A stretch of 34,899 nucleotides of DNA from Desulfobacterales bacterium (GTDB taxonomy: Bacteria > Desulfobacterota > Desulfobacteria > Desulfobacterales > SpSt-501). The stretch is from positions 1 to 34,899 of the forward strand of contig JAUQXK010000070.1 of NCBI GenBank assembly GCA_030834695.1, written 5' to 3'. The notes below the pieces were generated by a model. That model was not told the DNA's origin. It was given only the letters and a program-made list of their open reading frames with translations, and searched no databases. Shown in pieces: positions 9,641 through 22,817 of the stretch (within the stretch, counting starts at the first letter, position 1; every line of letters begins with the position of its first letter). The position numbers and the translations under genes are program-made.

Positions 9641-9734
9641 GGCCGGCGGGCGCGGCTAGGTTCATGGGTGGGCAACGGCTGATTCGCGGACATTCTCAGG
9701 TGGTGCACCCAAAAAATAGGAAGTACCTGGGCGC

Positions 9735-11156
9735 ATGAAAAAGCTGGAAAAGCTCCTTGACCGCATCCTTCGACGGGTCAACATAAACCTGAAGGTTCAG
9801 AAGTTTGAAGTTGACCCCTTCCTGAGGCCATCTGTGCCCTTTCGGAAGCTTTCCCAGTTCTATGCCTTTTATGGGGTTACCGGACAGCACCCGCTTCACT
9901 TTCACTTCAGCCATTCCAACCTGGCCGGCAGTTACTTTTTAGGCAAATGCCGAGTCGATGGGTCTATCCTCTATAAGAGTGATATCCGCGGAGACGAACT
10001 GAGGTCCAAAGGGGAAAGCTTGAATCTCAGGGGTATTCGCATGACGCTGGATCAGGATGAAATCATATCGATTTCCGACAGCCTGCTCGTGAAGACGCTT
10101 GTGCACAGCCGCTCCCACGATCCTGAAAATCCCGAAGTCTTCAACATCAAGAATTCCGCTTCCTGCCCGTTTGCCAATATCCATGGGTCTCCTCTCGAGG
10201 GCAGTTTCCTCGGCGCATTTGCAACGGCGGACCTGACAACCCTGCACGGTTGCGTCGTCGGCCCCTTTGCTTATGTGCAAGTGGGGGAGCTTTGGCATGA
10301 AAAAGTCGAGCCAGGTCAGATCTGGATCAACCAGACGGAGGTCTTTGACTTCCGCTACCGGTTTCCGGAAGACGTCCTAAAAAAATACATCCGGATTGAG
10401 CCTGGAGGGCTGCCGGGGGGCCGCTTCATGGAATTTCTGAACTCCCGGAAAGCAGACTTCCGCAGGGTCTTCGACGTCGTTCACCTGGAGCCGGTCCCCT
10501 CCGTACCCAGAACCACCTCCTTGAGCCGCTACGCGGTCGTCAAGCCCAAGACCCGCTTCGGAGCTAACGTTCTGATAGCCCAGCGGGCCTATATCGAGAA
10601 TTCTATCCTCGGCAAGGGCTCCAACGCCCAGGAAAACTGCTTCATCATCAACTCTCATTTAAAGGGTAACAATGTCACCGCCCACGGCGCAAAATTGATC
10701 AACACCCACTTGCAGGAAAATGTCTTTGTGGGCTTCAATTCCTTCCTGCACGGGCTGGCGGAGGCGCCGCTCGTCGTTGGGCGGGGCAGCATCATCATGC
10801 CCCACACCATCATCGATATCAGAGAACCGCTTTCCATCCCTGAAGATCATCTGGTGTGGGGGATTATCACCAGCCCTTACGACCTGCGATTGCATAGCAT
10901 TTCGCTGGAGGCCCTCGCCGCCGTGACCCGAATGAAAACCATCGGGCGAATGGAATTCTGCGGTTCCGGGGAAAAATTTGTTGCGGCGTTCAAACAGCGG
11001 ATCAATCATATTCTTGAAGCCAACGGCGCTTACTACGACGGGCGCAAGAATAAGGGCCACGCCCAGAAGGGCCAGAACATTGCCTACAACATCATCCAAC
11101 CTTATCGGATGGGCGCCCAGAAGGGCATCTACCCGACCATCGACATTCAGCCTTGA
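9735..11156 (+). CDS. Left-handed beta-helix (hexapeptide-repeat-like) protein of unknown function
   Basis: 473 residues, soluble, no signal peptide. From about residue 265 onward there are irregular hexapeptide-like coils (YAVVKPKTRFGANVLIAQRAYIEN..., SILGKGSNAQENCFIINSHL, VGRGSIIMPHTII), typical of left-handed parallel beta-helix acyl- or nucleotidyl-transferases. The N-terminal half also has beta-helix-like turns (LAGSYFLGKCRVDGSILY, LTTLHGCVVGPFAYV). No specific catalytic motif was recognised. It lies in the rightward operon between the DASS transporter (94 nt upstream) and the sensor kinase (63 nt downstream). Its ribosome site is weak. It could be an enzyme acting on the transported compound or a structural partner; neither can be decided. 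Confidence 0.75.
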   Translation: MKKLEKLLDRILRRVNINLKVQKFEVDPFLRPSVPFRKLSQFYAFYGVTGQHPLHFHFSHSNLAGSYFLGKCRVDGSILYKSDIRGDELRSKGESLNLRGIRMTLDQDEIISISDSLLVKTLVHSRSHDPENPEVFNIKNSASCPFANIHGSPLEGSFLGAFATADLTTLHGCVVGPFAYVQVGELWHEKVEPGQIWINQTEVFDFRYRFPEDVLKKYIRIEPGGLPGGRFMEFLNSRKADFRRVFDVVHLEPVPSVPRTTSLSRYAVVKPKTRFGANVLIAQRAYIENSILGKGSNAQENCFIINSHLKGNNVTAHGAKLINTHLQENVFVGFNSFLHGLAEAPLVVGRGSIIMPHTIIDIREPLSIPEDHLVWGIITSPYDLRLHSISLEALAAVTRMKTIGRMEFCGSGEKFVAAFKQRINHILEANGAYYDGRKNKGHAQKGQNIAYNIIQPYRMGAQKGIYPTIDIQP

Positions 11157-11219
11157 CGGAGAGCGGGTTGCATCGAACCCGCCTCCGGATTTGCTTTTGC
11201 TTAATCGAGTGGACAACAG

Positions 11220-12986
11220 ATGGCATTGGACATAATCATAAACCGGCTGTTTCCCGAAAGACTCACCCGGGACAAATATTACCGTTCACTGATCCGGAAC
11301 ATGGTCCTGACCATCATTATCGTATCGATGGTCCCGATGATCCTCGTTAGCAGCACGCTTTATCTTCAATTCCGCCATTCCTACCAGGAAAAGGTCGACG
11401 ACCACCTCCGCGAGCTGGTGCAGAAACACAAGCAGAACATCGACAATTATCTTCAGGAACGCTTGACCGACATCCGCCTGATGACGGCCCGATATGGCTA
11501 TGAACGGCTGAAAGAAGAAGATCTGCTGCAGCAAAATCTGGACCTGCTGAAGGAGGAATATGAGAAGGCCTTCGTCGATCTGGGCGTGGTCGACGGGCAT
11601 GGCCATCAGAAGGCCTATGTGGGGCCGTTCAAGCTGGCCGACGCTTACTACGGGGATGCCGATTGGTTCAAGGATGCCAGCCAGAAGGACTATGTGATCA
11701 GCGATGTCTTTCTCGGGCTGCGCGGCCTGCCGCATTTCATCGTCGCCGTTCGGTCCGAAGCGGCAGGCCGTCCGTGGATTTTACGGGCGACCATCGATTT
11801 CGTTGCCTTCAATGCCCTGGTTCAGAATATCCGGATCGGCGAAACCGGCTTTGCCTATATATTGAACCGTCAGGGAAAGCTTCAAACGACCCCCTTTACA
11901 CAAACGTCCCCCCCCGGCGTTATCGACACCAGTGCCCCGCAAGAGCTCTGGAAGCGGATGCCTTCCGAGGGAAACGACGTCCAGGTATTCTTAAGGAGGG
12001 ACAAGACCGGCCAGGATTACATCTATGCGGAGGCCTCTCTTAAAAACGGAGACTGGCTCCTCGTCTATCAGCAGCGGGCATCGGATGCTTTCGTCGATTT
12101 AAACCGATCCTTTGCAATCACGACGCTGATCATGGCGCTGGGGGCTGCTGCCGTAATCATCATGGCCCTGGTGCTGTCGCGCCGGATGGTGATGCGAATT
12201 GCCATGGCGGATGAAGAAAAGCACCTGATGGATGAAAAAGTGGTCGAGACCGGCAAGCTAGCCTCCATCGGGGAACTGGCCTCCGGGGTGGCACATGAGA
12301 TCAACAACCCCGTGGCCATCATGGTCGAAGAGGCCGGTTGGATGGGGGACCTGCTTGAGGAGGAAGAATTCCAGGATAGCAAGTACATCGATGAACTGCG
12401 CCGCTCTCTTGCCCAGATCAAGACCCAGGGAAAGCGCTGCAAGGAGATCACTCGCAAGCTGCTGAGTTTCGCCCGCAAGACATCCCTCTCGGTCCAGGAC
12501 ATCCAGGTCAACGAAATGATAGAGGAAATCGTGGGGATATCCGCTCAGCGGGCGAAATACGGCATGGTGGAGATAACGACCCGTCTCCAGGAAGGCCTGC
12601 CGTTCGTCCGGGTGTCGCTCTCCGAGCTGCAGCAGGTGATCTTGAACTTGATCAACAACGCGCTTGACGCTATGGAAAAGAAGGGGGGCAAGCTGACGCT
12701 GTCCACCTGCAGCAAGGACGGCTTCGTGGTGGTGGAGGTCGCCGACACCGGCGCCGGCATTCCCGCGGCCAACCTCCGCCGCATTTTCGACCCGTTTTTT
12801 ACCACCAAGGCGGTCGGCAAGGGCACGGGACTCGGCCTGTCGATCTGCTACGGCATCATCGAAAACATGGGTGGACGGATCGAGGTGCAGAGCACGGTGG
12901 ATGTCGGCACCGCAATTTCGGTGTATATCCCCTCCGTTGGTAGCGAACCCGAAAACGCCCCAAACGAGAAAAACCAAGATGCTTAA
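11220..12986 (+). CDS. dCache-domain transmembrane sensor histidine kinase, paralogue of the leftward one
   Basis: 588 residues. First membrane helix about 28-49, periplasmic double-Cache-like sensor about 50-295 ([45 protein letters not shown]), second helix about 298-320. The H-box is [15 protein letters not shown] (His359), the N-box [11 protein letters not shown], with [14 protein letters not shown] and GKGTGLGLS, so all kinase motifs are present. Length, domain boundaries and even the H-box position match the kinase at 1579-3333, indicating a paralogous pair on the two arms of the divergent locus. Two receiver genes follow immediately. The N-terminal sensor differs enough that the ligands may not be the same. 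Confidence 0.94.
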
Positions 12987-13005
12987 GGGATAAAGGAGTG
13001 CTACG

Positions 13006-13437
13006 ATGAGTATAGCCAACGTTCTGTTTGTGGACGACGAAGTTCCCTTTGTGGAAACCATGACCAAGCGCCTGACTCGGAGGGACCTTGAGATCATTCC
13101 GGCCCACAGCGGGGACGAAGCACTGAAAAGGCTGAAGGAGCACCCCGGCATTGAGGTCATCATCCTCGACGTCAAGATGCCGGGAATGGACGGCATCGAA
13201 ACGCTGCGGGAGGTCAAGCGCCAGTTCCCGCTGGTCGAGGTGATTATGCTGACCGGGCATGCCACGGTGGAATCCGCTATAGAGGGCATGAAGATCGGCG
13301 CATTCGACTACTTGATGAAGCCCTCCGAAATCGAAATACTGGTGGCGAAGGTCACGGAGGCGGCGGCTAAAAAGCGCCAGCACGAGGAAAAAATCATGCA
13401 AGCGCGTTTGAAGGCAATCACCACCCGACGCGCATGA
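13006..13437 (+). CDS. Receiver-only response regulator
   Basis: 143 residues. Acidic residues DDE at 10-12, phospho-acceptor D55 (IILDVKMPGMDG), the conserved Thr in MLTGHATV and the conserved Lys in YLMKP are all present. A basic, helical tail of about 25 residues (AAKKRQHEEKIMQARLKAIT) follows the receiver; it is too short for a known DNA-binding domain. AAAGGAG lies at good spacing before the ATG. The gene is 19 nt after the dCache kinase, its likely partner, and 12 nt before a second receiver gene. Confidence 0.94.
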   Translation: MSIANVLFVDDEVPFVETMTKRLTRRDLEIIPAHSGDEALKRLKEHPGIEVIILDVKMPGMDGIETLREVKRQFPLVEVIMLTGHATVESAIEGMKIGAFDYLMKPSEIEILVAKVTEAAAKKRQHEEKIMQARLKAITTRRA

Positions 13438-21760: not shown

Positions 21761-21930
21761 AAACCAGGGGGCCCAGGCTACCAGAAACCGCTTTTGGTTT
21801 CAATCGGCCGTGAACCCGGATCCGGGTGCGGCGGCGGCAGCGGGAGATGCAGCCCTATTCCCCCACCGCACCGCTCATGGTATAAGGTGCGCCGAAACGA
21901 TGGATCATCTTCCACGAAAGGATGGCTGAC

Positions 21931-22461
21931 ATGGGAGTACCGAAGCCGTTGATTAAAGACCAGGCTGAAGCCGGCGTACAGGCGATTTACGACGAGATGC
22001 ATTCGGCCATCGGCAAAATGCCCAACATCTTTGCCGTTATGGCCCATTTCCCGGCGGCACTGAAGCGGTTCATCCCCCTTTACACCGCTGTCATGACCCG
22101 GGGCAAGGTGCCCGCCAGGCTCAAGGAGCTGGCCTATCTAAAAACCGCCAGCATCAATGCCTGCCAATATTGACTGCGCGCTCACATTGCTTCGGCGAAG
22201 CAAGCCGGCGTCAATGACCGGCAAATCGAGGACCTTCGGTTTTATCAGACCAGCGATGCCTACGACGAGAAGGAGCGGGCCACCGTGCGTTTCGCCGACC
22301 TCGTCACCCGCGGGGCGGCGGCCGTCGACGCGTCGGTGCTCACCTGGCTGGGAACTTACTATTCCGATTCCGAGATCGTGGAGCTGGTCATGGTGATCGG
22401 CCTGGCCAATCTGGTCAACCGATTCAACGACACGTTGCAGATTCAACCGGATTTGGGATAG
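21931..22461 (+). CDS. AhpD-like (carboxymuconolactone decarboxylase family) protein, probable selenoprotein
   Basis: Read through one in-frame TGA (22171-22173) this gives 176 residues. The family motif is LKELAYLKTASINACQY-U-LRAH: Cys78 is normal, the second residue of the CxxC pair is encoded by TGA (residue 81), and the conserved His (85) follows. The sequence after TGA continues without disruption (AKQAGVNDRQIEDL ... LVMVIGLANLVNRFND) to TAG at 22459-22461. A hairpin starts soon after the TGA. AhpD-like CxxU selenoproteins are known, and Sec is common in Desulfobacterota. Role: thiol/selenol redox or peroxide reduction. The ATG at 21931 has AAAGGA at good spacing; an ATG at 21922 is too close to it. 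A standard gene caller would stop at residue 80. Confidence 0.85.
22174..22211 (+). promoter_or_regulatory. Candidate bacterial SECIS hairpin
   Basis: Starting 13 nt after the TGA, TTGCTTC (22187-22193) pairs perfectly with GAAGCAA (22197-22203), leaving loop GGC that begins 20 nt after TGA with G in its first two positions. A lower stem GCGC (22178-22181) with GCGT (22208-22211) extends it across an internal loop. This fits the general bacterial SECIS layout. The fold is derived by eye and lies within the coding sequence. Confidence 0.65.
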
Positions 22462-22514
22462 GCAGGATGGCTTGGCAATTCGGCCTCGTCTCATCAACAG
22501 GAAAGGAGAAGGAT

Positions 22515-22817
22515 ATGGGTCTGAACCGCGTGTTGATTCTTGCGGTGGTATTGGCGATGGCGGGAGGAATGATTCAGCCGGCCGGACTGGGAGCCCAGAC
22601 AAAGGGGCCGCCGGTGGAGATGGTCAAGAGCGCTTATCAGGAAATCCTGCGATCCTGCGACGCCAACAAGGACGGCCAGCTCAGCGCGCAGGAATGCCTG
22701 GGGGCATGGAAAGACAAGGCCAAGGCCGAAAAGGAATGCAAATACTGGGATGCCAACGGTGACGGCACGATCACCGAGGGGGAATACGTCGACCAAGTTC
22801 GGAAAATGATGAAATAA
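22515..22817 (+). CDS. Secreted EF-hand calcium-binding protein
   Basis: 100 residues. An N-terminal signal peptide (about 1-28: MGLNRVLILAVVLAMAGG, ending near GLGAQ) is followed by two EF-hand loops, DANKDGQLSAQE and DANGDGTITEGE, each with the D-x-[DN]-x-DG pattern. Two cysteines (in RSCDA and KECKYW) sit next to the loops and could form a disulfide after export. The ATG at 22515 has AAGGAG upstream. It lies 53 nt after the probable selenoprotein gene on the same strand and may be co-transcribed. A function beyond calcium binding is not visible. Confidence 0.87.
   Translation: MGLNRVLILAVVLAMAGGMIQPAGLGAQTKGPPVEMVKSAYQEILRSCDANKDGQLSAQECLGAWKDKAKAEKECKYWDANGDGTITEGEYVDQVRKMMK

Follow-up and report, generated by a model that had tools for sequence, protein, structure and literature searches.

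Selenoproteins of the AhpD-like type, with selenocysteine (Sec) at the second position of a CxxU motif, have been in print since their description from the Sargasso Sea in 2005 (PMC1088965; papers given by PMC accession are cited here from partial texts). The GOS AhpD-like 1 and 2 selenoproteins are covered by PMC2398784, and PMC13188914 lists both an "AhpD-like protein TIGR01926" and a "CMD-like protein PF02627". PA0269, a peroxidase-related protein of this fold, has a five-residue proton relay and weakly reduces H2O2 (PMC3141380). The gene examined here, located in a 34,899-nucleotide stretch of Desulfobacterales DNA (the window), very probably joins these already known AhpD-like CxxU selenoproteins. 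It shares with them the CMD/AhpD domain, predicted Sec as the second residue of CxxU, and a predicted SECIS element just downstream; it differs in that the members of its subfamily that were scanned lie below the cut-offs of TIGR01926 (except L048) and NF053654, the published selenoproteins being compared by description only. The window protein scored 72.2 bits against the TIGR01926 (peroxidase-related enzyme) cut-off of 81.8, which L048 passes with 87.6, and 75.5 bits against the NF053654 (YciW-related (seleno)protein) cut-off of 310.

A second described system, the selC*/selB*/cysS* cassette, is reportedly due to Mukai et al. 2017. A description of the cassette in Desulfobacterales is given in the review PMC7609411, where the A1:U72 pair of the tRNA is linked to recognition by CysRS*. 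It has been proposed that the cassette supplies Cys at UGA codons for Sec under selenium scarcity (PMC9437257), and CysRS* itself is described as uncharacterised (PMC11415595).

The reading frame (Table 1) is interrupted once, by the TGA at codon 81. The surrounding motif is NACQY-U-LRAH, and 95 residues follow before the stop. Translation from 21922 instead would lengthen the protein by three residues; the start at 21931 was preferred by eye for its better spacing from the probable ribosome-binding site. Residues 41-123, which span the TGA, match the CMD model of Pfam (PF02627) with an E value of 2.2e-17 (63.2 bits against a gathering score of 23). The alignment to the solved chain 2ijc (PA0269) likewise runs through the TGA and puts a Cys opposite codon 81. 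Because of these two alignments and the preservation of the frame on both sides of codon 81 in 14 of 14 close homologues (described below), the AhpD-like frame across the TGA is not attributable to chance. The first-pass annotation had placed the TGA on the second catalytic cysteine of the CMD/AhpD motif and had noted 95 uninterrupted residues between it and the TAG; direct reading bore out both points, as did the Cys found at this position in homologues and the open downstream frame in all 14. Under ordinary annotation the protein would end at residue 80. Immediately downstream, in the same orientation, lies a gene for a small protein with an EF-hand motif, which has a counterpart in G005 alone among the loci compared.

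Table 1. Features of the window and of the related cassette loci. G000 is the genome from which the window comes; G002 is another genome of its genus.
Feature	Location	Strand	Remarks
AhpD-like (CMD family) selenoprotein gene, predicted	21931..22461	+	176 residues with Sec81 if read through; ATG at 21931, stop TAG at 22459-22461
In-frame TGA	22171..22173	+	codon 81, second position of CxxU
Probable ribosome-binding site GAAAGG	21916..21921	+	from sequence only, spacing by eye
Predicted SECIS hairpin	22187..22203	+	7-bp stem, loop GGC at 22194-22196
Small protein with EF-hand motif	22467..22817	+	just downstream
selC* + selB*	L050, G000 contig C11, 4805-6342		selB* cut at contig end after 473 residues
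selC* + selB* + CysRS	L061, G002, 9700-13068		

The AlphaFold model of the protein (mean pLDDT 81.8) has an AhpD-like fold and superposes on Bmp8 (6ohi) with a TM score of 0.86 at 24% identity; other AhpD-like structures also match. Residues E66, C78, Y80, position 81, and H85 are invariant in the 14 close homologues. E66, C78, Y80, U81, and H85 correspond to the relay residues of PA0269, and the catalytic Glu, CxxC/CxxU, and His that define the family are thus all present. PA0269 and the other peroxidase-related AhpD-like proteins compared (2ijc, 2o4d, and Bmp8 6ohi; 21-30% identity) share the fold and the five relay residues but have Cys where the window gene has UGA. In place of the second Cys, Sec would be the stronger nucleophile.

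Homologues were sought in 146 relatives, among them the six other members (G001-G006) of the seven-genome genus to which G000 belongs. Nineteen genomes gave a match at E 1e-12: ten close ones (at least 60% identity), including the window's own genome and all six other members of the genus, and nine at 24-36% identity. A contig scan yielded seven loci, of which L045-L048 come from Acidobacteriota and Rokubacteria, L043 and L044 repeat G005 and G006, and L049 is distant and partial. The 14-row alignment comprises the ten close genes and L045-L048, leaving out L043, L044, L049, and the distant matches. Codon 81 is TGA in nine of the 14 (G000, G002, G080, G120, G059, and L045-L048) and Cys in five (G001, G003, G004, G005, and G006), with no other state. 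The TGA genes extend beyond the genus to other families of the order and to Acidobacteriota and Rokubacteria, giving the combination by which bacterial selenoproteins are recognized, namely a TGA within the frame at a position where homologues have Cys, together with homologues from other organisms that likewise have TGA. The first-pass annotation had looked to homologues with Cys or Sec at residue 81 for confirmation and to close relatives with neither for refutation; every close homologue carries one or the other, and Glu predominates at this position in the distant (24-36%) matches only. There the counts are seven Glu, one Cys, and one TGA. The distant TGA case (L041 1501-1989 in G074, 27% identical) has the motif NACAY-TGA-VDAH. 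A draw of 395 genomes from the phylum gave five matches besides the window's own at E 1e-30, all of them distant, with Glu in three, Gly in one, and Cys in one. Within the genus, the G005 protein is 94% identical to that of G000 and its codon 81 is TGC. The surroundings of the gene are partly kept in each of the six other genus genomes, which have one or more of its flanking genes in common with G000: the OTCase gene upstream, or the aldo/keto-reductase or BtpA-type gene on the opposite flank.

In G000 the hairpin stem begins 13 nt, and its loop 20 nt, beyond the UGA. A 7-bp stem with a GGC loop stands at the same 13-nt distance in each of the nine TGA genes, and 62 of the 63 pair cells across them are formed, the unpaired one being in G059. 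Two stem pairs show changes on both sides, and RNAalifold recovered the same stem independently and unprompted. Of 500 shuffles run as a control, 4 attained the observed percentage paired and covariation score and 49 the observed count of two doubly changed pairs, so covariation alone is modest evidence. Codon choice is the stronger point. Among the TGA genes, five of 45 residue-invariant columns (Met and Trp excluded) are also codon-invariant, and four of these five are codons 87-90, the core of the hairpin; the chance of such clustering is 3.4e-5 with kinship ignored. The five Cys genes are more closely related, and 31 of their 107 comparable columns keep a single codon; codons 87-90 are not among these. 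The Cys genes can form two to four of the seven stem pairs in four cases and all seven in G005. Published rules for bacterial SECIS elements, in the part of PMC13188914 available, ask for a loop of 3-9 nt with G in the first two positions, lying 16-37 nt beyond the UGA, a stem of 4-16 bp, and an MFE of at most -7.5; the G000 hairpin has a GGC loop, seven possible base pairs (six of which form in the MFE fold), a distance of 20 nt, and an energy of -15.5 kcal/mol, all within these limits. Single-sequence folding of six of the 14 genes gave no stability beyond that of shuffles (G000, z -0.97) and no separation of Sec from Cys genes by energy; the Cys gene G004 folds at a lower z (-2.19) in a different shape. 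Conservation of the hairpin, like the Cys forms in the genus and the second UGA-reading cassette, lay outside what the first-pass reader could see.

The genome of the window encodes selA, selB, two selD, and tRNA-Sec, all above family cut-offs; the first-pass annotation had named selA, selB, selC, and selD as the genes to look for and their absence as grounds for rejection. The two selD genes (L010 on contig C65 and L011 on contig C5) each have an in-frame TGA near the start. Among the other genomes with TGA genes, SelB of G059 and G146-G149 is of the ordinary type (39-67% identity to ordinary SelB against 30-32% to selB*), and tRNA-Sec was identified by ARAGORN in G120, G059, G146, G147, and G148. 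No convincing tRNA-Sec candidate was found in G080 or G149, and no SelB at E 1e-50 in G080 or G120. G080 and G120 belong to one genus and keep the TGA gene and its hairpin, G120 together with tRNA-Sec; incomplete assemblies are the only explanation offered for their missing SelB. The Sec trait also persists in genomes with the Cys form: ordinary SelB is present in G001, G003, G004, and G005 (not found in G006) and tRNA-Sec in G001, G003, and G004 (not found in G005 or G006). Cys in the genus therefore does not simply follow from loss of the Sec trait.

Beside its ordinary selB, G000 has a second selB gene, which lies directly after a second tRNA with a UCA anticodon. Within the genus this selC*-selB* pair was found in G000 and G002 only; among the 146 relatives, cassette-type SelB occurs in 14, with an adjoining tRNA at 12 of the 14 loci, and 11 of the 12 cassette genomes outside the genus also have ordinary SelB, the exception being G011. 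The selC* of both G000 and G002 has the UCA anticodon, U73, A1:U72, and an 8-bp acceptor stem, with an A bulge in the T-stem read by eye. Among the 12 selC*-type tRNAs, U73 and the UCA loop are present in all, eight acceptor pairs in 11, and A1:U72 in nine; the other three (L073, L079, and L080) have G1:C72 instead. In G002, selB* is followed by a 436-residue CysRS that matches positions 2-384 of the 466 in TIGR00435, the end of the family model being unmatched; the cysS* of the cassette is recognised by its lack of the anticodon-binding domain. A UCA tRNA with U73, a second SelB, and a CysRS thus stand in a row in G002 as in the published cassette, and a new second selenocysteine system, considered as an alternative, was dropped because U73 and the cysS gene identify the published one. 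The cassette lies outside the window, separate from the AhpD-like gene, and is proposed here as a possible second reader of its UGA. Contamination was considered as an origin of the selC* and selB* genes and rejected. Contig C11, which carries them, measures 6.3 kb and the assembly is 4.96% contaminated (G002, 5%), but selB* is 74% identical between G000 and G002 over 473 residues, close to the 79% of their ordinary SelBs, and the single- or two-contig genomes G016, G121, and G054 carry cassette-type SelB too. Contamination of both G000 and G002 by one related organism is a residual alternative.

The open frame, the exchange of Sec and Cys among homologues, the conserved hairpin, and the Sec machinery genes are direct observations, and they support the selenoprotein (CxxU) assignment already made in the first-pass annotation. 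The gene very probably encodes an AhpD-like, peroxidase-family selenoprotein in which UGA 81 is read as Sec by means of ordinary SelB and the downstream hairpin. Sec-tRNA(Sec) brought by SelB would read the codon, with the hairpin directing insertion, and Sec81 would take the place of the second catalytic cysteine; through a Cys78-Sec81 selenenylsulfide the enzyme would most likely reduce a hydroperoxide or some other substrate that is oxidised or halogenated. That the TGA arose by sequencing error, or by nonsense mutation of a gene in decay, is very improbable. The codon is one base from TGC and the close relative G005, 94% identical, has TGC, but eight of the other 13 close homologues, in other genomes, have TGA at the same codon, as does the distant L041, the hairpin is common to the nine close TGA genes, and the frame is open past codon 81 in all 14. 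A nonsense mutation had been judged unlikely, and a miscalled TGC or TGT named as a possible objection, in the first-pass annotation; the eight further TGA genes and their common hairpin argue strongly for the former view and against the latter.

The UGA could also be read mainly as Cys, with selC* as a tRNA-Cys(UCA) charged by CysRS* and delivered by selB*, making the protein an ordinary CxxC enzyme. Reviews, in the parts available, state that the charged selC* tRNA places Cys at Sec UGA codons; selC* and selB*, with U73, A1:U72, and the UCA anticodon, are present in G000 and G002, and these are the same two genus genomes that keep TGA (2/2 against 0/5). The same TGA and hairpin, however, are also present where ordinary SelB was the only SelB detected in the genome, G000 has the full Sec machinery, and cysS* was seen in G002 alone, the G000 contig ending inside selB*. 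Reading mainly as Cys is accordingly considered improbable, though less so than an error or decay. As selC* and selB* are present alongside the Sec machinery, some of the predicted selenoprotein may nevertheless carry Cys at position 81, for instance under selenium shortage.

Within the genus, TGA occurs with the cassette in two of two genomes and Cys without a detected cassette in five of five (Fisher 0.048, uncorrected, post hoc, and with kinship ignored), and three of the latter five are incomplete (G001, G005, and G006, 80-87% complete); the association is suggestive only. The TGA genomes outside the genus yielded no selB*, and the idea that selB* is a required decoder of the AhpD-like UGA is unsupported. 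The SelB tree firmly joins G000 with G005 and G003 with G004, its deeper branches not being firm; of these pairs, the AhpD tree supports G003-G004 alone. Outgroups suggest that TGA is ancestral, which would require at least two switches to Cys. What is new here is that the window genome and one other of its genus combine a TGA AhpD-like gene with the published cassette; the literature searched (most subscription papers lying outside it) gave no link between Sec in AhpD and selC*. A tentative, rather speculative reading is that the UGA is decoded two ways, as Sec through SelB and as Cys through selC*/selB*/cysS*, and that the Cys backup lets a lineage keep Sec in AhpD, Cys being fixed soon after loss of the cassette. 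G005, with Cys, an intact hairpin, and no selB* found, might then be such a switch caught early.

In this genus a single enzyme at a shared locus occurs in closely related predicted-Sec and Cys forms, and its hairpin, still whole in one of the Cys genes and degraded in the other four, provides a natural series for the loss of selenocysteine. Because two of the genus genomes also carry a cysteine-type reader of UGA, the gene offers a ready test of the cassette as a selenoprotein backup.
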